A DNA stretch of 64,000 nucleotides from Nautilus pompilius (Eukaryota > Mollusca > Cephalopoda > Nautilida > Nautilidae): positions 1,594,501-1,658,500 of the forward strand of contig JACATO010002730.1 in assembly GCA_018389105.1 (NCBI GenBank), given 5' to 3'. Shown here in pieces: positions 13,190 to 59,144 of this stretch. Position 1 is the first letter of the stretch. Each line of letters starts with the position of its first letter. The position numbers were made by a program, and so were the translations under genes. The notes below the pieces were generated by a model. That model had not been told where the DNA came from and did not search any database. It was given only the letters and a program-made list of their open reading frames with translations.

Positions 13190-13191
13190 TA

Positions 13192-13418
13192 CAGTGCCGG
13201 ACAAAAGAGTTGGGTCGCTTCCTGTGTAATTGATATTTGAGCTCCCTCGTTTCAACAAACGTATTTAAATACCCATCACATTGTTTATTATATGCACAAA
13301 ACATGCCTTTACGATGTATAAAAGCAACATATGCTATATGTTTAAATTTTCTTTGGAAAAATATATGAATCAGCAATGTCCGATTTGTACCGCGACAAAA
13401 GAGTCGGGACAGTGAGCA
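13192..13418. repeat. left inverted terminal repeat with two internal sites
   Basis: The outer site starts at 13192 and contains GACAAAAGAGTTGGG. The inner site at about 13391-13418 contains GACAAAAGAGTCGGGAC. The sequence between them is also similar to the opposite end. This is the IR/DR layout known from some Tc1-like elements, where each site binds a transposase paired-type domain. Confidence 0.9.
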
Positions 13419-13479
13419 GAACCATAAATATTTTTCAACATTCCAAATTACAATCGAACAAATGCATGGAAATGATCAA

Positions 13480-14290
13480 TTGAATAGTAGTGGGTGGCGT
13501 ACCAGTGATTTTCGATCAATTCGTTACAACGAAGGGGCATGGATTCGACCAAACAAAGGCAGTCAGATTTGGTCATTTTCTACCAGCTTTTCTCGACGGC
13601 CTACCAGAACTTGTCTTGGTTGAGATTCTTGTGTTTGACCAACTTCGCCTTCAGCTGCTTCCAGACATTTTCGATTGGGTTGAGATCCAGACTTTGGGGG
13701 CGGCCAGCGCATGACATCCATTCCTAGTCGGGTGGTGAGGGATGTGAGGACTCTGGCGGTGTGGATCGGGGACATTGTCGTGCTGGAAGATGGCGGTGAC
13801 TGTCGATGTAGTCGACGACAACATTCCTCAGTAAATTGCAGTAGGTCTGGGCGGTCACTCTGCCCCTGTTCAACTTGAAAGGGCCTGGTTGCGCCGCGTC
13901 CATACACCCCAGGCCATCAACGATCCTCCTCCGGCCTGTACCGTCGGTCGGGTGCACTTTATATTTTATTTTTCGCCATGGTAACGTCGAACATATACTA
14001 GGCCAGCACTGCGAATACGCGTGATCATCGTTTCGTCAGAAAGGAGAACTCTAGCCCATTGAACTTTGGTCCAGTTTTTGTGCGCTTTAGCCCTTGCTGT
14101 CACATTTTCGCGGTATACCAATTCTCATTTTTGGTTTCGTGTTTCCGGTCTCCTTGTACTTCTTCAGAATGCAGTTTACAGTGCTTTTCGGGCGATTGAC
14201 TTGATCGGCTATCTCCCGACAAGACAGATTTTCTTGGTGGTGCTCAAATATCAAGTCTCTGATTTCAGACGACGTTGTCTTGCCAGGCAC
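13480..14290 (-). pseudogene. Tc1-like transposase, internally deleted and frameshifted
   Basis: The ATG at 14288-14290 opens a 67-codon frame with a first helix-turn-helix: residues of the type EIRDLIFEHHQENLSCREIA, then RPKSTV, then the basic GNTKPK...IPRK linker. A TAA ends it. Directly after the stop, the KNWTKVQWARVLLSDE block with the first catalytic Asp (codon 14035-14037) begins, so the second helix-turn-helix and linker (about 70-80 codons in relatives) are missing. Next come a stop where the 54.6 kb copy has Tyr, the GWG-like block, and the second-Asp block IFQHDN (about 13780). One extra C there shifts the frame. The last block, DLNPIENVW, survives in the shifted frame, followed by more stops. 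No functional protein can result. Members cut DNA at TA sites by a DD34E mechanism in the nucleus. Confidence 0.9.
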
Positions 14291-16189: not shown

Positions 16190-16525
16190 CAGTTTGTTCT
16201 CAATCAGCACTTCACAATAGCGGATGCGACTACTTGATCCCTTGCATATATGCGCTTGTTTTACCTTTATCTTCGACTCCAAATCTATTTTAAGAAAGAA
16301 TTTATAAATTTTTTTGATTTAAGAAACCATTCAAATGTCAGAAAGACGGCAGTGTTTTTAGATTGCGCAATGATAATTTCTTAAAGCGGTTTTCTTTCGA
16401 TCAATAATTTCTAATTATGTTCATGTAAAGAGGAGAGACTTTTCTGCAAACACCGAATCCATACCACTGCTCTGATAAGAGAAAATTGTATTGAGGGGAA
16501 GCAATTTCAGCACCTAAAATATCCC
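16190..16525 (+). repeat. diverged direct repeat, copy 1
   Basis: Starts CAGTTTGTTCTCAATCA and aligns with the copy beginning at 17183. Shared blocks in the same order include a TATTTTAAGAAA word, TTTTTGATTTAAGAA-CCATTCA, AATAATTTCT, a CAATTATG/TAATTATG-TCA-GTAAA block, GAATCC, and a GAGG-AATTT-AGCA-CT-AAAT block. It does not look coding: both strands have stops. It may be a non-autonomous element or an old local duplication. Confidence 0.75.
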
Positions 16526-17182: not shown

Positions 17183-17490
17183 AGTTTGTTCTCAACCACC
17201 ATATTTTAAAATAGCAGCTATTCTGATTTGTTATTTTGTAACATTTGTATGTCTTTTACTTTGAGAGCTGAGCTATTTTAAGAAATCTTTTTGATTTAAG
17301 AATCCATTCAGTTTTCAAAGTAATGGCTATACTTTTAGAATAAGCAATAATAATTTCTGAAAACCTTTTTTTTCAATCGATAGTTTGCAATTATGCTCAC
17401 GTAAAAAGAAGGAATTTTTTTAAATAATGAATCCCTACATGTTGTTGAAAAAAATATTGATGAAGAGGAATTTAAGCATCTGAAATGTTT
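17183..17490 (+). repeat. diverged direct repeat, copy 2
   Basis: Second copy of the 16190-16525 repeat, same orientation, offset about 993 bp. Many substitutions and several small indels separate the two, so the duplication is old. No protein motif is visible in either copy. Confidence 0.75.
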
Positions 17491-31328: not shown

Positions 31329-31438
31329 CTAGTAAAAAAATTAGAATATATATTTTGTGCTATAATAGTTTAGGATAGTAGAATATAAATATGAAAATCT
31401 GTTATTTTTCAATGATTCATTTTTTGTTCAATATAGTG

Positions 31439-32625
31439 ATGCCGAGAGCCCGATATTTGACCCCAGAACAGTGGACCAAAATCGTTCCCATGAAAGATGG
31501 TGAAACTGAGTGGGTCATAGCGGATCGTATCGGTTGCAATCAGGCGACGATATCTCGCACCCTGAAACATTGGAAAGCTGATGGGATCCTAATTTCAAAA
31601 CGCAGATCCGGCAGACTGATGAAAACGACGGATCGACAGGAACGTCTGGTCGCCCGCATGTCGTACTCGGACCGATTTCGCACTTCCACCGACATCCAGA
31701 CCGCCTTGTCAAGGTACCATGGGATCCAGGTGGCCTCGTGCACCATCAGACGGCGTTTGATCCACATTGGACTGTTCAGGCGATCGGTACAGAAGAAGCC
31801 GTTCATCAGTCTGGACAATCGTCGAAAGCGAATACAGTGGGCTGGCGACCATCTCCACTAGACCTGGCCCAGTGGTTTCGAGTGTTGTTTTCCGACGAAA
31901 GCAAATTCGTGAAGGTCTACTCGGCGGGACGGGTGTACGTTCTGCGATCGATGTCCGAGAAATACCATCCTATTTCCTACTCGACCGACTATGAAGGCAG
32001 AGGAAGATTCGGCCATGGTTTGGGCTGATTTCAATCGTCCGGTGTCGGTCCGTTGCATCATGTGGAGGATCGAATGAATGATCAAGTCTATGCAAAGCTG
32101 CTCTCGCTAGTATTAGGTACACTAATACAAAAAAAAAAATAATACAGGTCGAAATAAGACCTCAATTATAAACAGCTGAGGCGGCCGGTCGTGGAACCGA
32201 CCCAACTCCCACCACACATTCGCAACTTCACAAACACACCCCAACAATTGCACCACACCCCCAAAAAAGATCGTCTCGGACATTGTCGAACCGTATGTGT
32301 GACCACATGCCCCTGAAGGCCATCTATCAGCAGGAAAACGCCCCCATCCACAATTAGGAGTACCAAGGCCTTGATGGCAGAGTTAAGAATCCCCCTTCTC
32401 GACTGGCCGGCTCAAAACCCGGATCTCAATCCCATGGAAAACATTTGGCACTCGATTAAAAACTCAGCGTTAGTACCAAAATACCGACAAATAAAACCGA
32501 TTTGAAACGGAAAATCTAGGAAGCCTGGTCGGAGTTCAGTAGTGACAATTGTCAGCGTTTGGTAGCCAGCATGCCTCGTCGTTTTGAACAAGTTATCAAG
32601 AATTTCGGATATTCTACTCATTAAT
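31439..32625 (+). pseudogene. Tc1-like transposase, stops and frameshifts, second Asp replaced
   Basis: A clean N-terminal frame of 140 codons starts at the ATG at 31439 (MPRARYLTPEQW). An upstream in-frame ATG at 31391 adds 16 hydrophobic residues and is less likely. It holds two helix-turn-helix units (VIADRIGCNQATISRTL, then TSTDIQTALSRYHGIQVASC with TIRRRL) and an RSGR linker between them. The frame stops at TAG (31859-31861), where relatives have Trp, and a base is lost just after. The next frame carries WFRVLFSDESKF with the first Asp (about 31894). Another shift follows near 32000 (SAMVWADF block), and then a C/A-rich stretch. The second-Asp block reads IYQQENAPIH, with Glu for Asp, followed by a further shift, then DWPAQNPDLNPMENIW with the catalytic Glu. 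The C-terminus also has stops. The protein would cut DNA at TA sites if intact. Confidence 0.92.
32195..32275. repeat. C/A-rich low-complexity stretch inside the transposase
   Basis: The plus strand is almost only C and A here (CCACACATTC, CACACCCCAAC, CACACCCCCAAAAAA), unlike the rest of the element. It replaces the region between the fourth beta-strand block and the second Asp block, so it is probably a local expansion or insertion rather than ancestral coding sequence. Confidence 0.7.
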
Positions 32626-33720: not shown

Positions 33721-34574
33721 ATTGTGCCAAGCAACATTGGATGAAAGAGAAAATATTACTTTATTCTCTTGTCTTTTCCGTACTCCATATATATATATAT
33801 ATATATTTGTTAAATTCTTTTCGTTTATTCTGCTTATTTTTCCAATATTATAAAAGAGTTTTTATCATTACTAATAATCACCGTTTTAATGTTTCCTTAG
33901 TATATTTATGATAATCACTTTAATTCTTAAATTATAACTATTTCCCACTTTAAATAGCAAATTTACCCATCACTACATGTGATTAGTCTATCTCATTGGG
34001 TTGTTAGATAGAACGATTTTGCTTGTCTTTATATAATTCTACTTTTAAACATTTCATTGTATAAATGTATATAAACATTTCCTTCAACTTGCTTTGTATG
34101 ATGATATCCATATAATATCCGCAATAACTTTTCCACTATATTAGTGTCATTTCCATTTTAAAATGGCAAAAATTTCTCTCAACCTAATATGCAGATTTTC
34201 TTTTATTATGAAAGTGATAAATGATTTGCATCATCTGCGTGTTTTACACTGGTAATATTGGTACTCTTCATCGGGAAATGGCATTTGTTCAAATAAATAA
34301 AATGTCTCAACTCCGACCGTGTATACGTCTGATTACACGTTAACTTGAATAATTTTCATATTAAGGATTTAATTCATATAAATACTCTGTTATTTCAGAA
34401 GTCAGAACCGTAAGTTTAATAATATAGTATTTAAATATTTATATTTATTTAATCAATTAACTTGTTGATTAGATTTTAAATAAAACCTGCGGGTTGTTGT
34501 AATATTTAAATATGCTAGTAAATGCATTTTTCCTGTGTTTTTTTTTTCTTTTCAATTATTAAAAATAAATAAAT
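33721..34574. other. AT-rich DNA, no gene recognised
   Basis: Contains a TA tract at 33787-33807 and AT-rich sequence. A pyrimidine-rich stretch at about 34529-34552 lies upstream of the candidate exon that follows. Confidence 0.5.
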
Positions 34575-34937
34575 ATGAATGTTATTCACAACTGTAAATT
34601 TAAAAACCAACAAAAAACAAAGGAATTTTATTTGTTTCGAGAAAAAGCTGTTTCATTTATAAAGCTTCTGATAAGACTCTCGGACATTAAAGATCAATTT
34701 TTCAATCAATTTACTTGTCAAAATATGCCTCGGGAGATTCCAGAATATTGCCTTTGCTGTTTGGCTAAACTCCGTCTGTGGCGTTTAGTTAAACACGAAG
34801 TCACCGAGCTGATTCTTGGAGATAATAGAAGTTTATTGAACAGGAAACAGGAAGAGGAACTTTTAGTATGCAGAAAGTGCGTGGCGGTCAGAGGAGACCT
34901 TCCAGAAAGTTTGAAGAGCAGAAAAGGAAAGCGCTAG
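34575..34937 (+). CDS. unrecognised 120-codon frame with two C-x2-C pairs, candidate exon
   Basis: I do not recognise this protein. The frame is open from 34575 to a TAG at 34935-34937. It becomes protein-like from about residue 48: MPREIPEYCLCC, then a basic/aliphatic helix-like stretch (KLRLWRLVKHEVTELIL), an acidic-polar run, CRKC and a Lys/Arg-rich end. The two C-x2-C pairs are 36 residues apart. This is the arrangement of a two-pair zinc site, loosely like a zinc-finger-associated domain, but that is only a pattern. The region and its 3' flank to 35240 are more GC-balanced than the surroundings. It could be a terminal exon (poly-pyrimidine upstream at 34529-34552, possible AG at 34618-34620), a repeat-borne frame, or chance. 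No stop or frameshift breaks it, unlike the transposon genes here. Confidence 0.35.
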   Translation: MNVIHNCKFKNQQKTKEFYLFREKAVSFIKLLIRLSDIKDQFFNQFTCQNMPREIPEYCLCCLAKLRLWRLVKHEVTELILGDNRSLLNRKQEEELLVCRKCVAVRGDLPESLKSRKGKR

Positions 34938-40434: not shown

Positions 40435-40782
40435 TCAAAATCTTTCAAGTAAAGTGTTACATAGATGAGATTGTGATACCGATGGACTTGACTCTTCATA
40501 AAGAACTGAAAGCAGGGATTCAACACGTATGACCAGAACGCTGGAATGAACAGGATCAGCTGGGGTAGTCAGTTTTAGGGCAAACAGCATCACTACAATA
40601 CGACGACCACTATATCCCCAGATCATTATATCTCTAGAGGTTTTTTGTAGATTCGAAAGATTCAGGGATTTTACTCCAGTGAACCTAGAAAATGTAGATA
40701 GACATGTGTCAGGAGTAACAAGTAAGACCAGATGGGTAAAACACAGGCCTTCAAAATTTGGGTCACCAAAAATTGTCTGCAA
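40435..40782 (-). CDS. unrecognised 115-codon frame downstream of the 41 kb family copy
   Basis: An uninterrupted minus-strand frame starting MQTIFGDPNFEGLCF and ending in an Arg-Phe. It lies about 130 bp beyond the last readable codon of the decayed gene at 40.9-42.2 kb, on the same strand. It does not read like a continuation of that family as I know it. The complementary plus strand is also nearly open in one frame (VSFRANSITTIRRP, then NLENVDRHVSGV), so which strand codes, if either, is unclear. It may be part of the same mobile unit or of an older repeat. Confidence 0.3.
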   Translation of the reverse strand: MQTIFGDPNFEGLCFTHLVLLVTPDTCLSTFSRFTGVKSLNLSNLQKTSRDIMIWGYSGRRIVVMLFALKLTTPADPVHSSVLVIRVESLLSVLYEESSPSVSQSHLCNTLLERF

Positions 40783-40909
40783 TGTTAACTGATATTTTTG
40801 TTGTTTGGTCTGTTGATTTTAAATATGACCACTATTTTTCTCTATCACGTAAAGACTTTTCACCAAGTGAATACGAAAATATGGGAAAATAGATTATTAA
40901 TACGTATTC

Positions 40910-42177
40910 TGGTTGAAACATTTATTTCAGAAGTTTCAGAATATCTGGACAGAAGAAAACACCTTTCATTTTTGCATCTGACAGTCCCGAAAACATGTTG
41001 CGCAGGTATTAAAAAACTCTCCATCTTTTGACAGAGCCTTTACAAATTGTTTCATCAGTCTAAGCTTGATATGAAGTGGAGGCACGAGGACTTTCCTTGG
41101 ATCAACCAAACTTTCCCGTACTACATCTACCATAAACGGCCACTCCTTTTTGATCCAGTGTTGGCCCCTATCCAAACTGTCCCATTCACACAAGAAGCGG
41201 GAGTACTTGGTGCATCCTCCCTGCTGTCCAAGAAGCATGGAAATTATTTTTAGATCGCCGCATATCGTCCATCCATGATCCTTGTATTTCAGTTCGGCGA
41301 GAATTAAGGCTAAATTCGCGCAGCATTCTTTCAGATATCCAGAATGCCCTACTGGTACTGAAGCGTACTCGCTGTCATTGTGGAGAAGCACTGCTTTGAG
41401 GCTTCTTTTTGACGAGACAATAAAGAGCCTCCACCTCGTTCACGTCATACTGTATGTTAAACCTCTCCATCAGTCCAGGGACGTCGCTACAGTAAACCAG
41501 GTCATCTTCTTTAGAAAAGTATGGAATGGAATATTTTTCTCTATTTCTAAACCATGAGAAAGAGATACCAGCGGCCAAAATATTATTTTCCTTTAACCTA
41601 GAGGCTAACAGTTCTGCTGCATCTTTAGGAAGACCCATGTTTCTGACTAAGTCATTCAATCCAAGCTGTGAAAAAAGTTGGAGCTTGCTGCTGCCTGAAA
41701 CATCATGAAAGTCATCATCAGAACCCTGGCCTTCTTTTTCAGAGTCTTCAGGAGTGTTTTATAGTTTTTTGGAGGTAAAGGTACTGGTATAACTGGGCCA
41801 TGAGGTACAGGGCGTATTGCCGGCGAGAGGTTCGGATAGAAAATTTCTTTCTTATTCTTTTAGATTGAACACCTGTACGTTACACGAACAAAAGTAACAG
41901 TCATTACTGTGATTTCTGGGTTCCCTCCATACCATAGGGATCCCAAAATGGAAAGATCTTTTCTTACCTTGAGACCGCAGTCGGAGTTCTTCCACAAAAA
42001 TAGAACGCACTTTATGTGGGGCCCAGGACGTATACTGGTCACCACGTTTCAAACCAAAATACGCATAATACACTTTTTTAACAAAGTCTTGATGTTTTTT
42101 TGCTGTTTCTTCATTACAAAGTTCCCACAAATGTAACAGAAGTTATCAGGTGCATTAAGACAACCCCTTGCAGCCAT
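40910..42177 (-). pseudogene. frameshifted copy A of an uncharacterised, probably mobile, protein family
   Basis: The gene starts at the ATG at 42175-42177 (MAARGCLNAPDNFCYICG) and can be followed in five pieces in three frames. (1) 42177-42091, with C-x2-C. (2) To 41855: DFVKKVYYAYFGLKRGDQ, SWAPHK, GKKRSFHFGIPMVWREP and CYFCSCNV. (3) About 41878-41770: KEIFYPNLSPAIRPVPHGP. (4) About 41760-41375: an acidic spacer, then LNDLVRNMGLPKDAAELL, SFSWFRNREK and PYFSKEDDLVYCSD. (5) About 41434-40966: EWRLFI, KAVLLHND, WTICGDLKIISMLLGQQGG, FLCEWDS, WIKKEWP and PPLHIKLRLMKQFVKAL, then one more shift and FSGLSDAKMKGVFF to about 40913. I recall this domain order from unnamed multicopy proteins of arthropods, cnidarians and molluscs. 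The usual C-terminal part (about 130 residues) is absent. Two Cys expected after WAPHK are lost. Function unknown. Confidence 0.8.
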
Positions 42178-44839
42178 TTAGTACACTTATAAAAAGAAGA
42201 AAACCACAAATAAAAACTACTAATGAAAAAGGAGAAAAACAGTAAATTCTGCAGAAATGACACGTCTGTAAAAGTACACTGGTTATGACAGAACCTTCTC
42301 AGACAAAGATCTAATTGAAACTGAGTCAAAGTACGGAGTGTTGATAGGAGAAAGCAAAAAGGAGTGAGTCATCAGCTGATCTCACTGTCTGGGGAGGGGG
42401 GAACAAAAAAGAGTGAGTAAAAAAGAGTAAAAAAAAGAAAATTTAATTATAATTAATTTTTTGTTTAGAAGCTTAATACAGTGATTCTGGAGATTTTGAA
42501 ATCGAAAATTTGAGTTTGTGGGGAAAATAGTACGTGATGCAATTTTTAAACTATTTTTACTGAAAACAACACCCAAAGATCTATAAGTATCAGCTATTAG
42601 TTTTCGGACAATGTTTCCACTGCAGGCCTGTGTAATCAGTCGAATCGTTTTAGGTATGTACAGAGCGAAGTGGTCTCAAGGATACTGACTATGCTATTCA
42701 GTTTATATGTTGCCGGTACAAATTGTAACATTGTTCCTTCTTTAATATATTCTAATTAAATATATGAGTTCACTTGGCTAAGTGTTTAAATACTTTCTTA
42801 TAATTTTTAACTACAATCAATGTTTCATTAAGTGTAATTGGATGTGATGTCATTTTCAGATATTCCTATATTTTTACCAATATATATGCATAAATAAATC
42901 GTATGAAACAAAAGAAAATAACTAATGAGATCTTGAAATTGATTTAATATATATTAATACCTGACCTAGGATCTGCAAGTTTCAAATAGGCTATTCTATG
43001 CACAACGCTGACAAATGTTAATTCATTTTATTTGAAAGTCCTGCAATAAGGAGATGTTTGTTGACCAATGACTGCTGAAAAATTGTATAAAACACTGTTT
43101 TATGTACTAGACTAAGTTTCAAATAAACGTTTTAACTATTTCCTATTTTCTGAAACACTAGAAGAATTTCTTAGTGGTGGGTATGAAATATTTTGCTAAA
43201 GCGAAATCCTACTGTGTGATTAGCTGGGTGTTCACTATAGACAGAGATGCCTCCTCTCTTTAAATGTCATATTAATTGGATCTCATAGACTTAAGCAAGT
43301 AGGATTCGTCTTTTAAAGTATTTAATTCCGTTATTTCCATTGCAAACAAAATGCAAACTTCATGCAAACCAAAAAATATCTCACTGTGATTTTTAAAAAT
43401 ATTTTATCCTACAATAAAGATACTTAGAATACTCTGTGTAACAAAGCGGTTTTTCAAATTCGTACGTTTAAACGATCTCGACTCTTACTGTCACAGATTC
43501 CTGGTTACCCTGTTTTTAATTTATCAGAGTTTTTTTTTAATTTGAATGTTTTTCTGATCTGAAAGATAGTCATTCTCTGCATATCCAACCCCCCAAAGAG
43601 ATTTAACATTTCTTGGGTTTTAGCTTTCCAATCGTAATGATTGGTTTATGGAAATCGCAGGTCATTACAAGAAAAAAACACTGCTAAAAGAACTGATGAA
43701 CTTTAAATATTATAAAGCCTGCTATTTATTTATTCATAATCGAATGATAAATGAAGGATAGATTTCCGCCACCGAAACGGCATTCAAGTAATTTTATATT
43801 CTTTTAATATTACGCGGAATTAAATGTAACTGAATCAAAGCTTTTTTTTTCCCACAAAGGTGTGAAATAACTTGAGAGGAGAAATGCATAGCATGTCTAG
43901 TATTGAACTCCATTTATAAGCATCAGTTTAATCGCATTCAAACCAAATTTATGAATTTAAGCTAAAGCTAACCGGAGATTATGTTTAAGATTGCCATATG
44001 GTTACTTATAATTCAAAGTTTCTCTGATTATCAATTGTCTAACCCATTATTTTATGTCGCATGATGATTTTTTTTGAAAATCAAGAATGTCCTGCTGTTT
44101 AATGTGAATTCTGACTTTACTAATAAACATTTGAACAATTAAAATGCTGATAAATTTGATTGCTAATACATTGGAAGAATGTTATAAGAATTATCTTCTA
44201 TGTAGCATTTAATTTTTAATTCACAACGAATTTTGATGGATACTGCATTCTTAAAATGAATCTTTAAATAGAGATTTTTACAAAGAAGAAACAAAACGCT
44301 CCATATATATATAATTATATACCGTTTAATCAAATGATTTACACGATGCACAAGAACGCGTCCAATAACTAACTATCAATTTACTCTGATGACTGGTCGT
44401 TTTTGTTAGATTACAAATAAATGAAACCTCTATTTGCATAGAATTTATTAATTAAAGTAGATTTTGCATTATTATTTTGTTTCATGTGATCATTTACAAG
44501 ATGGCTGTCGATGTTTTAAAAGTCTACTGTTTCAAAATTGCTGCATTGCACAGTGCCCATTAGGGTGAAAGAAATGTGCTTATAACAATGTTCAGCGACA
44601 GAAAAAGTTCATATATAATAATGGAAATAACCATGAAAACAAAATATGCAGAAATAATGAATAAATCCAATGCAATATTTTTTTAAAAAATAAATACGTT
44701 GCGCAGTGCATTATTATTTGTAATTTAAACCTTTTCTTTTACATAAACAAGAGCATAGCATTGTTTTCATTCTCCTATCCAGGTTAATAGTATATGATTG
44801 TGGAATGATGTTTCAGATATCTTACTTTTACAATTCATT
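42178..44839. other. upstream flank of family copy A, then AT-rich DNA
   Basis: The minus-strand gene's 5' flank (42178-42430) contains a G-rich stretch and repeated GAGTGAGT/AAAAAGAGT words. No inverted terminal repeat matching the downstream side was seen. Beyond 42600 there is AT-rich DNA without recognised genes. Confidence 0.45.
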
Positions 44840-54552: not shown

Positions 54553-55173
54553 TGGGTTAAAGTGTACAAAGAATGGATCAAAGTTCAACAGGATAGAGTT
54601 CTCTTTTCCGACGAAACGATGATCATGCGCATTATCAGTGCTGACCGAGTATATGTTCGACGTTACAATAGCGAAAAATACAATATAAAGTGCACCCGAC
54701 CGACAGTGCAGGCCGGATGAGGATCGTTGATGGTCTTGGGGTGTCTGAGCGTAGCGGGACCAGGCCCTCTGAAGTTGATCATTGGCAGATCGACCGCCCA
54801 GTCCTAATGAAATTTACTGAGGGATGTCGTTGTCGACTACATCGACGAGAACATGCCAGTCACCGCCATCTTCCAGCAAGACAGTGCCCCGATGCACACC
54901 TCCAGAGTCGTCTCTTCCCTCACCACCCAACTAGGAATGAATGTCATGCGCTGGTCGCCCCAATGTCCGGATCTCAACCTAATCGAAAATGCCTGAAAGC
55001 AGCTGAAGGCCAAGGTGGCCAAGGAAAGGAATCTCAATCAAGACCAATTCTGGCAGGGCGTCGAGAAAAGCTGGCAGGAAATGGCCAATTCCGATTACTT
55101 TCGTTTGGTCGAATCCATTCCCCGTCGTTGTCGAGAAGTGATCGAAGATCACTGTAACGCCACCCACTACTAG
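54553..55173 (+). pseudogene. Tc1-like transposase catalytic domain with four stops, frame intact
   Basis: One continuous frame of 206 sense-position codons plus the terminal TAG (55171-55173) covers the whole DDE domain. The first Asp is in VLFSDE (codon 54610-54612), the second in IFQQDSAPMHTS (54880-54882), and the Glu in DLNLIEN (54985-54987). Exactly 34 residues separate the second Asp and the Glu, the DD34E signature of Tc1. Decay is by point mutation: TGA at 54718, TAA and TGA at 54805 and 54808, and TGA at 54994 where relatives have Trp. No indel breaks the frame, unlike the 13.2 kb copy. The C-terminal tail (FRLVESIPRRCREVIE) is well kept. The long plus-strand frame 54690-55157 is another phase of the same DNA. 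The N-terminal DNA-binding part is absent. Confidence 0.93.
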
Positions 55174-55242
55174 TCAATTGATCATTTCCATGCATTTGTT
55201 CGATTGTAATTTGGAATGTTGAAAAATATTTATGGATTTGCT

Positions 55243-55464
55243 CACTGTCCCAACTCTTTTATCCCGGTATAAATCGGACATTGCCGATTCAAATACTTTT
55301 TCCAGAGAATATGTAAAATGTAACATGTGTTGCTTTTATACATTGTAAAGACATGTTTAGTGCATATAATAAACAAAGTTATGGGTATTTAAATGCGTTT
55401 GTTAAAACGTGGGTGCACAAATATCAATTTCACTGCAAGTGTACCAACTCTTTTTCCGGCACTA
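55243..55464. repeat. right terminal repeat of the truncated Tc1 element
   Basis: Inward on the minus strand it reads GTGCCGGAAAAAGAGTTGG at the end and GATAAAAGAGTTGGGACAG at the inner site. Sequence between the sites closely matches the left terminal repeat of the 13.2 kb element, including a TTGATATTTG block and a GTTTATTATATGCAC block. Confidence 0.9.
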
Positions 55465-55466
55465 TA

Positions 55467-56517
55467 AAACATAATTCCTATCTTTATAAATAAGTGATCA
55501 TCTACGTGCAAATACTGTACATTGAATACATGAAACAGCCATGAAAATATAAATGCACGAAAGAAGAGTAAGTTATTTTTATAGAATATTTGTATGCTAT
55601 TCCATATTATTTTTTAAACGATCTCACTTTCTTGTTGAAAAAACTAGCAGCAGTCTCCTATCATTCCTGGATTTTATATTCCCTGATAATTTTTTTGCAT
55701 TACAAAAATATCCGAATGGAAGTACTTTCCATTTTTATCGCTAACTTTATTCACATTCTTAAAAAAATAGTCTGAGTGTAAGAAGTATATCCATAGCGAC
55801 ATTCATGCATTTATAGTCATCCAGAAACTTTTAAGCAAATTTATAGTAATTTGCTTTTATGTTTAGCAAGAAATCTCTTACAACTGTTTTGAATGATTAC
55901 CTAAAGAGCTAATTCAAAATTAAACAATTTGTCTTCAACAATTTAATCATTTACAATCTCATGAATCTGTGGGCCAAAAAATCCCTTCTTTCACATTGGC
56001 ATTACTGATTTTTGGAAATATATTCTCGAGATAGTTGAAAGCTCCGTTTCAAACTTTGACAAAATTTTCATTATGACAAGCGTAATATGTAAAGGGAGAG
56101 ACTTTGTTCTGATTGACTAATGGAGAATGATTAACATTACTTCTTTCAGGAGTAAATTCTTATCACGGTGGCTACTGTTTTACTATATACAGCTATTCAG
56201 TTTCGCGTCTCTGCCAGATAAATGTCTTTTGATGAATAAATTGAAAAAAAATTGGAAGAGGCAATCACGATACAGATGAGATACTGTTATGTGGTGAGTC
56301 AGTCTGAGTGAGAACTGTGTCGAGCTATTGTAATAACCCATTTAGATGGATTTAAATTCAGCATGATGTGCTGGTGATGTTTTTGCAGTAGTTTTCTTCA
56401 CTCGATCGTTCTACCAAGCTCATTCAGGTGGTACACATTTTTTTCATCAGCGAGTACATTGCTTCAATAGCATTGACTTGCTCAGCAGTTAAGCAAAAAT
56501 TTTTTTATTTAAGATTT
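55467..56517. other. AT-rich DNA, no gene recognised
   Basis: Short overlapping frames at 55553-55775 have no recognisable domain. Nothing else is assignable. Confidence 0.5.
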
Positions 56518-56805
56518 TCAGGGTGCTTTGGAGTGGAATCTTTCAGTCAGTGGCTGGGTGAAAACCATTGTGATATTTGCAGATTCGACTCTAGAGTCAA
56601 ATTCTGCTGTCACTGCTGGACTATTCAAACATCTCTCCACCGAAGTAGTTAAAATGGACATCATCCTCCACGTGTCTCCTGGTATTTTCTGTGCTAGAGT
56701 TTCTGTTGACAATATTTTGTGAAGCCTGAATGTAAACGAAGTAAAATTACATGAATTTAAAACTACCACAAATGTTCTAGTCGTGATACCTATAATTGAT
56801 AGCAT
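56518..56805 (-). CDS. unrecognised 95-codon frame near family copy B
   Basis: The minus-strand frame is open from 56805 to 56518 and reads on past a stop as a further open stretch (AEQVNAIEAMYSLMKK near 56440-56490). It lies about 250 bp downstream of copy B of the uncharacterised family on the same strand. I cannot match it to that family or to any other. The plus strand is open too (56528-56722), which weakens the case. It may be part of the same mobile unit, an unrelated repeat, or chance. Confidence 0.25.
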   Translation of the reverse strand: MLSIIGITTRTFVVVLNSCNFTSFTFRLHKILSTETLAQKIPGDTWRMMSILTTSVERCLNSPAVTAEFDSRVESANITMVFTQPLTERFHSKAP

Positions 56806-57049
56806 TGAGAAAGATGGCTATACTTTCATGAGTTTCCTTCACAAATGAAATGAGTAAATGGATCCAAAAGCTTATTTTTTTCGATTATTCAAATTATCTC
56901 TCTTTAGATGCATCATTAAAAAATTTATAATCAGGTGCTAGTCATTGGAATTAACTCAATTAATGCATATTTCTACTGACATCTGTGCACACAAAAATAG
57001 AATCTCGCATTTAAAAATTGGTTAGCAATACATTATGGTGAATCCTAAA

Positions 57050-57500
57050 TACAAACTTTGGTACCTCAAACTAAGATGTTCAGCTTGTTGCTTCTTCAAG
57101 GTTGAATCACGTACCAAATCATCCAGCTCTTGTGATTTATTAAGTCCGGCAGTTTGTCTTCATTCTGCAGAAGTTTGTGTCATGTGATGCTGAGTCTCTG
57201 TGTTGACATATTTTCGTTATACTACTGTTACTTCCAAGTTTTCGATGTAGTTGAAATTGGCAATTCTTCATCATGAGGAACTGGCTTAATGGTAGAAGAC
57301 ACATCAGTGTATTGGATACTATGCTTTTGTTAGAAGAGAACACGGCAATTTTCTTAAGACAAAAGTAGTAGTTACCTTTGTGATTTTTTGGCTCTCGACA
57401 TACCACCGAAATAAAAAGACACTGAATAACGTTTTCCTCTTAGCCATAGCTTGAAATTCATTGAACACTGGAATACAACATATAAGAGATGCACACGTTT
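57050..57500 (-). pseudogene. copy B of the uncharacterised family, 5' part only
   Basis: Minus-strand frames give, in the family order: a QAMAKRKTLFSVF stretch (family: GKxxSxxFxxP), VCREPKNHKGNYYFCLKK at about 57340-57410 (family: VWREPKNHxDDCYFC), VSSTIKPVPHDEELPI (family: SAIRPVPHxxxxPV), and at 57055-57135 QELDDLVRDSTLKKQQAEHL (family: LNDLVRxLxLxKxxAELL). The first Cys of the YFC pair is Tyr here. The wording (CLKK for CSCN, PHDEELPI for PHGPVIPV) differs from copy A, so two subfamilies are present. Frames change at least twice. The CGDLK/FLCEWDS region was not found to the left. Confidence 0.65.
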
Positions 57501-59144
57501 GTCCAGACCTACAATTTTGCGGCTTAAATGAAGATGATTGATTGACATCCTATGTCAGTGGAGATATTGTCTTAAGCTGTGATTTTGTTTTGAACTTTCT
57601 GTACAGGTATAATAAAAAGAGTCTGCATCGTTGATACAATCACAGATACTATTTTTATAAATAATTCATATTTGTGAAGAAACAAATACAGAAAATATTA
57701 AATTATGGAATTAAACAATACATGTAAGCATATACTGTATATGCATGCATGCATACATTTATGATTATATGCATTTCGAAAACCATACGTGATGCATGTA
57801 AGCTGAATGCATTTTATATAATACAATATTTTAAATCAATTTTACATGTTTATACTTAGGAGAAAGAATCTTTGTTGACCACCATAATATTTTATCAATT
57901 TTCTGTGGAAAAATAAATTAAGGTTGTTTTTTAATCATTTTAGAAAATTATGTTTGTGATCATTGCTATCCTATTTAATTAACTGTGTACAAATTAATTT
58001 TTTGATATGTCTCTGCTCGTGTCGAGCGCGTAGAGAGAATGAAATCACGCGTAACGATGTGAGAATTATAAACTGGTGGTGATAATCAGAATTATAATTT
58101 GTCAGCAACTGATCAAATTTAATTATTTATTTGCTTTTAAAGCATATCAAACCGTGAAAACATCCAACAAATTCAGAAAGTTGACAAGAATTGAATTTAT
58201 TGTGAAGTAATGAGGCTTGTTTAAATCGTTGCGAAGCTACTTTCACAATGAAACCATCAGCAAACATTGATTTTAAGAAACAAATCTAGAAACTATAAGA
58301 CAAATATGAAGATCAATGTCACGTTTAATGGATACCTGAATTGATTACAGCATTCACTGGTTTGGTATACTGAAAAGGTCTCAAAATGTGTAAAACATTG
58401 GTAAGAAACCTCTCATTAAAAATTTGCCATACTTTCCATATAAACAGCTATAACATATAATTATACGTTTCATATATTCAGTAGAGTTGAGATCTACGTA
58501 ACTGTGGAATTGCATATCTATGTCATTGTTTCGTTTAATTTAGATGGAAGTAAGGCACAGGATATTAATAAAAAATATGTAAAAGAGAGCTTGGAATATA
58601 GTTGTAAGTCAGCACTTCCTATATCTGGATATAGTATCAGACTTTGCCGTATGCCAAACCCATAAATCCGCGAAACAAAATTGCACAAAAGAGACACGGC
58701 TCTAATATGTGAATAAACATTATGCAGGATTTCATTTTTTTTAGCAAACCGTGATAAATTCTACTGAAATATGGAGAATACTTATGCTTAAAATACGTGA
58801 TTTTGTTATTTTAAAGGTACTAGATCCACAATAAACTTTGACATGAAAAGCATAAGAAGCAGACAATTTTCAATATGTCTGTGTAATGGTGACATCTCTA
58901 TTTTTAATCAAGCTATTTTTTTTAAAACTGATGAATTATTTCATCACCTTTTTACAATAAGGCCGAATTTAAAAAACAAAACAATGTTTTTAAAAGATAT
59001 AAATATGCAGCTAATATATAATTATGATAATATATAATAATAAAGACATAAATGATTAGTAGTAATATAAAACAAAAACAAGTCAACATATTAACGGTTT
59101 GAGCGGACCATGTTTCGGGTAAACGCAAACTGTGCAAGGGACTT
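57501..59144. other. AT-rich DNA, no gene recognised
   Basis: The part to about 57600 could contain the missing start of copy B, but no Cys pair was found. The rest is AT-rich with a GCAT-repeat patch near 57745. Confidence 0.45.

Follow-up and report, generated by a model that had tools for sequence, protein, structure and literature searches.

The window analysed here, a stretch of 64,000 nucleotides from the genome of Nautilus pompilius, carries the remains of a cysteine-rich protein on its minus strand. The question is what this protein was, and whether it belonged to a mobile element or to the host. With a probability of about 0.93, what lies here is the dead remnant of a DNA transposon of the cut-and-paste type that belongs to the Chapaev3 group (CMC clade), an assignment made through published hallmarks and not through sequence comparison. 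The original prediction had seen decayed protein from a multicopy family and had suggested a mobile element, and this is borne out by at least 150 strong matches in the genome, defined ends and target duplications. It had also proposed an undescribed mobile system, which does not hold, the termini, target duplication and motifs being those published for Chapaev3 in the available sections of PMC4079192.

The broken reading frame

Reading of the frames assigns 42177..40925 on the minus strand to one decayed protein, broken into six pieces that lie in two alternating frames. The N-terminal piece (42073..42177) contains the FCYICG Cys pair. It is followed by a piece with the WREP-NH-DCYFC Cys motif (41855..42073), the YPNL..RPVPHG linker (41734..41859) and a piece that runs from LNDLVR to SKEDDLVYC (41435..41740). 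The catalytic piece (41011..41439), in which the LH motif is present, was read from the frames together with the alignment of relatives, where the window copy is L007. The final readable piece (40925..41008) extends up to a deletion. The motifs reported beforehand (FCYICG, WREP-NH-DCYFC, LNDLVR, SKEDDLVYC, CGDLK, FLCEWDS and others) are all found at their given place on the minus strand. The broken protein is likewise confirmed, with six pieces rather than five, as YLRNMFSGLSDAKMK, in the other frame, carries the family on past FVKAL and adds one.

There are five frame changes in this copy, referred to below as copy 1. The position of the first catalytic Asp is occupied by Val (codon beginning at 41418), the second catalytic Asp is kept (codon beginning at 41256) and Arg stands in place of the first Cys of the C(2)C motif. 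Copy 1 is incapable of making a transposase; both of its termini remain.

Limits of the element and its internal deletion

Alignment to 24 close relatives (L008-L026, L049-L053) ends near 42632 and 40742, and both ends match the termini of the subfamily. The whole decayed element, probably of Chapaev3 type, occupies 40742..42632 on the minus strand, a length of 1891 bp with both terminal inverted repeats. Of the extent first proposed, 40910..42177, the edge of the readable protein at about 40910 stands; the element itself reaches further on both sides. The 5′ terminal inverted repeat, CACAGGCCTGCA, lies at 42621..42632, at WIN1 position 869 of the alignment (22 of 24 bases match), and the 3′ repeat, CACAGGCCTTCA read inward, at 40742..40753 (20/22), both on the minus strand. 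Each is an arm found by the inverted-repeat finder, which had already listed the ends of copy 1 as one among many short pairs. End reading on the same strand gives a target site duplication of TTA on the 5′ side (42633..42635), with A before it, and on the 3′ side TTT (40739..40741), one base off TTA, with T after it.

The proposal that copy 1 is cut off at its 3′ end was dropped, as the alignment with the 24 relatives pointed to an internal deletion instead. The junction lies at 40925..40927 on the minus strand, and roughly 470-505 bp are lost, the size varying with the relative compared. At position 2574/2576 (WIN1), copy 1 joins position 2033 to 2515 of L008 and 2436 to 2925 of L050. The remainder of the coding sequence, including the H(4)H motif and the catalytic Glu, was lost in the deletion. 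This junction was seen in none of the 24 relatives. Two of these, L049 and L050, share a contig, with about 1.25 Mb between them, and are 99% identical far past the element, which suggests duplication of a single locus and not two separate insertions.

Copies in the Nautilus genome

The host genome comprises 727.6 Mb in 2558 contigs. A search with a single piece of copy 1 returned at least 150 strong matches, all with E <= 1.4e-45, among the 150 scored out of 4642 first-look candidates. Twenty regions were fetched around matches of a more distant group that is poor in stop codons. When one of these loci, L027, is compared with the other 19, 15 align over about 2315 bp with 98.7-99.8% identity. 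L044 and L045 align to it along the 3′ 1943-1964 bp only (99.2-99.5%), and L042 and L043 form a separate subfamily. The original prediction had proposed that boundaries be found through paralogous insertions, and alignment of the 20 loci did give sharp element ends.

In the 18 young copies that could be read at both ends, the element measures 2287-2394 bp. Their 36 flanks, up to about 500 bp each, were compared, and none matches another fetched locus (E <= 1e-6); two show a partial match, to the window only. A genome-wide search for the left terminus of the L027 subfamily found 74 occurrences, of which 70 are exact, while the reversed control gave 0. The genome holds dead copies plus very young, intact-looking relatives of the element. 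At L041:700-1956 on the plus strand, a 419-aa open frame adjoins the element.

Termini and target sites

Base-by-base reading of the ends gives the terminal inverted repeats of the L027 subfamily as CACAGGGGAACA and CACTGGGGAACA, one at each end; at L037 a single base of the terminus is changed. The ends of L042 and L043 are CACAGGGTAACA and CACTGGGTAACA. Termini of the form 5′-CAC..GTG-3′ with inverted repeats are present in three subfamilies, represented by CACAGGGGAACA, CACAGGGTAACA and that of copy 1. Each of the 18 young copies is bordered on its two sides by an identical TWA (TTA or TAA), and in every one the duplicated TWA has A before it and T after it. These 18 comprise 16 of the L027 subfamily together with L042 and L043; L044 and L045 were excluded from the count as their left end was not found, and L032, which is counted, lies within a TAA repeat and so carries no information on this point.

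In the older subfamily, to which copy 1 belongs, 25 copies including copy 1 itself were compared, and 21 of them had both ends located at thresholds of 17/24 and 15/22 matching bases. Their target duplications are identical in seven, differ by a TTA/TAA swap in five and show other changes in nine. Among the 12 older copies with TWA on both sides, five (L012, L022, L023, L051 and L052) combine TTA at one end with TAA at the opposite end, which is more than we would expect from mutation, as a matter of judgement and not of calculated expectation. That the swaps arose from ends joined to different copies of the target, for example by pairing the ends of two neighbouring elements, is considered improbable. 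If the swaps were due neither to point mutation nor to gene conversion, they would indicate an additional mode of Chapaev3 insertion, which the available sections of PMC4079192 do not mention.

The intact protein and its catalytic residues

An intact frame of 574 aa is present in four of the 20 fetched loci (L027-L030), and in L027 it is the sole open frame above 250 aa. Alignment with relatives reads the catalytic triad of L027 as D272 (RLFLDSS), D326 (CVDLK) and E524 (GERFH). The C(2)C motif corresponds to C345/C348 (PCFLC), LH to H394 (PPLHIK) and H(4)H to H502/H507 (HFLNSH), giving the order D272, D326, C345, C348, H394, H502, H507, E524. In a census of 47 fetched loci, chosen by similarity and many of them near-identical so that the counts are not independent, the first Asp is kept in 41, the second in 46, each of the two Cys in 45 and the LH His in all 47. 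Among the 44 loci readable further on, the two His of H(4)H are kept in 42 and 40, and the Glu in 37.

The family protein is very likely a DDE transposase. Both Asp residues proposed as catalytic at the outset can be placed on this alignment. That of CGDLK is the second catalytic residue, whereas that of FLCEWDS directly follows the C(2)C motif and lies outside the triad. A structure model of the window piece alone had a mean pLDDT of 38.8, too poor for use; at low confidence, its start (strand-strand-strand-helix) agrees with the beginning of an RNase H fold.

A second copy and other features of the window

Another member of the family, of a different subfamily, lies on the same strand of the window. 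Its N-terminal part and the start of the catalytic domain occupy 56712..57638 (minus strand), where a frameshift-aware alignment with the copy 1 read-through scores 178, with 100 of 339 aligned columns identical. The family resemblance is far beyond chance: scores elsewhere in the window do not exceed 52, and the best among 16 shuffles is 59. A further scan again peaked elsewhere at 52, reached at two places, one of which (40928) belongs to copy 1, and a third copy was not found in the window. The C-terminal part of copy 2 lies at 55617..56150 on the minus strand and reaches a GKYFHSD region that corresponds to GERFH of the intact copies. From 56150 to 55952 it was aligned (score 78, 30/70 identical; best of 60 shuffles 45), and from 55952 down to 55617 the frames were read by eye. 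Between the two parts, 56150-56712, about 560 bp are without match to the family. Termini of copy 2 were looked for and none were found; its decay is worse than that of copy 1.

Copies 1 and 2 are identical at 52, 60 and 31% of first, second and third codon positions over 362 aligned codons, in an alignment guided by the protein, which biases identity toward positions 1 and 2. The corresponding values with a shift of one codon are 28, 32 and 27%. This pattern fits two lineages that would have diverged as working proteins and died later.

Other features of the window were recorded. A remnant of a Tc1/mariner-type transposase lies at 31382-32028 on the plus strand (HTH_Tnp_Tc3_2, E 7.4e-17 for 31382-31861). 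An unnamed 0.9-kb repeat is present at 54554-55466 and 13190-14093, on opposite strands and 85% identical, and a pair of short repeats at 16306-16464 and 17283-17438 is 74% identical. At 34569-34937 a 122-aa open frame has two Cys clusters (CLCC, CRKC); its weak Pfam match, nsP3_ZBD at E 0.053, is under the cut-off.

Database searches

The intact protein has no Pfam match at E <= 10. Searches with 15 members of the alignment gave six families (Peptidase_S80, DUF5390, RAG1_imp_bd, TOP_N, RAMP and zf-AD), each in one or two members with best E of 0.045 to 3.1; none is a transposase and all were treated as chance. No credible PDB match was obtained with the intact protein, either as a single sequence or as an alignment profile. 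For copy 1, the five broken pieces had no match in Pfam, three pieces had none in NCBIfam, and the same number searched against PHROGs gave one PHROG at E 0.081 and otherwise nothing. The catalytic piece had no match in the PDB, and two PDB matches of the read-through were both rejected as chance. Relatives were not found in scans of viral and bacterial contigs, where six loci proved to be chance matches, nor by tblastn against phages. The motif strings of the family were not found in the papers searched. The missing Pfam match means only that no curated model was matched.

Alternative explanations

None of the Pfam models linked to CACTA, Mirage and Chapaev (PMC3985635, in the sections available) was matched at E <= 10, which is what a new DDE superfamily of the CMC clade would show, one with Chapaev3-like termini and target that is nevertheless not Chapaev3. 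All the testable Chapaev3 hallmarks given in the available sections of PMC4079192 are present, however, including the unusual A-TWA-T and the lengths of element and protein. An unnamed superfamily was dropped once the target sites and these hallmarks had been compared, and it is now regarded as highly unlikely.

The codon positions of copies 1 and 2 bear on a different reading, that of a host gene family with its pseudogenes and no mobile element. Selection before decay seems likely from their 52, 60 and 31% identity, but active transposase lineages would give the same pattern. Evidence against a host gene comes from the sharply defined ends, the inverted repeats and the target duplications of 3 bp in 18/18 copies, as well as from near-identical copies across many contigs with unrelated flanks, and this origin is given almost no weight. 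Equally little weight goes to a retroelement RNase H, or some other non-transposase nuclease carried by the element. The string LFIDSSKRSLKAVLLHN superficially resembles, in our own reading, the first strand of an RNase H; short inverted repeats and TWA duplications round an element of 2.3 kb do not fit a retroelement, and the sole frame above 250 aa in L027 was not matched by any reverse transcriptase model of Pfam. The preferred reading is still a transposon of the Chapaev3 group; what counts against it are the missing Pfam and PDB matches, the poor structure model of the window piece, and the older subfamily, where only seven of 21 copies have identical target duplications.

Proposed mechanism and significance

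Direct observation covers the copies with their termini and target duplications, as well as the motifs and the intact frames. An intact element is about 2.3 kb long and contains a single long frame that encodes the transposase, of about 574 aa. This protein has N-terminal Cys pairs and a probable DDE catalytic domain with C(2)C, LH and H(4)H. It probably binds and pairs the CAC..GTG inverted repeats and excises the element, and insertion into ATWAT with a stagger of 3 nt would leave the TWA duplicated. By analogy with the family, the catalytic domain would adopt an RNase H fold, C(2)C and H(4)H would have a role in binding zinc, and the chemistry would be that of transposition. Copy 1 would be an old insertion that later suffered the internal loss of roughly 470-505 bp and the five frame changes.

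The cysteine-rich protein family, at first sight nameless, very probably represents the transposase of a transposon group already described. Proteins of the same type, presumably listed in databases as uncharacterised, could be labelled on this basis, and the young copies would be suited to a transposition assay of Chapaev3.

Comparison with known systems

PIF/Harbinger elements have a target duplication of TWA, as in the Nautilus element, and differ from it in their ends; the intact protein has no Pfam match to the PIF/Harbinger nuclease domain at E <= 10. The target duplication of Transib/RAG1 is 5 bp, whereas the Nautilus element duplicates 3 bp, and no match to the RAG1 core was found in the PDB or Pfam.

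EnSpm/CACTA elements are similar in their CAC..GTG ends, 3-bp duplications and the motif pair C(2)C/H(3-4)H, as described in the accessible part of PMC12730594. The difference is that the Nautilus duplication is a fixed sequence, TWA. The EnSpm/CACTA model Transposase_21 (PF02992) was not matched at E <= 10 by the intact protein or by the alignment members. The CMCT motif definition in the accessible part of PMC12730594 covers a wider clade, and the Nautilus element also shows it. The sections of PMC3985635 that are available tie Pfam models to the CACTA, Mirage and Chapaev superfamilies. The Chapaev model, DUF1280 (PF06918), gave no match at E <= 10; Chapaev serves as an outgroup to Chapaev3 in PMC4079192, so that a missing match speaks neither for nor against Chapaev3.

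According to the available sections of PMC4079192, Chapaev3 elements have TWA target duplications flanked by A and T and 5′-CAC..GTG-3′ ends, and their proteins carry C(2)C, LH and H(4)H motifs. The Nautilus element shares the A-TWA-T target, the CAC..GTG ends and C(2)C/LH/H(4)H with DDE with the Chapaev3 elements Garfield, Merrow and Conan. The original prediction had named a clear match to a named transposase superfamily as the outcome that would speak against it, and such a match is found here in the termini, target duplication and motifs (PMC4079192), not by sequence comparison. The length of about 2.3 kb compares with 2289 bp for Garfield_BM, which encodes 556 aa. The Nautilus protein, of 574 aa, is encoded in one frame, whereas Garfield and Merrow have two exons; Chapaev3 transposases are mostly single-exon, and in this the Nautilus element is like most of them (PMC4079192). 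We infer from the termini, target duplication and motifs that the protein groups with the named Chapaev3 proteins. The element is assigned to Chapaev3 because each testable hallmark in the available sections of PMC4079192 is found in it.
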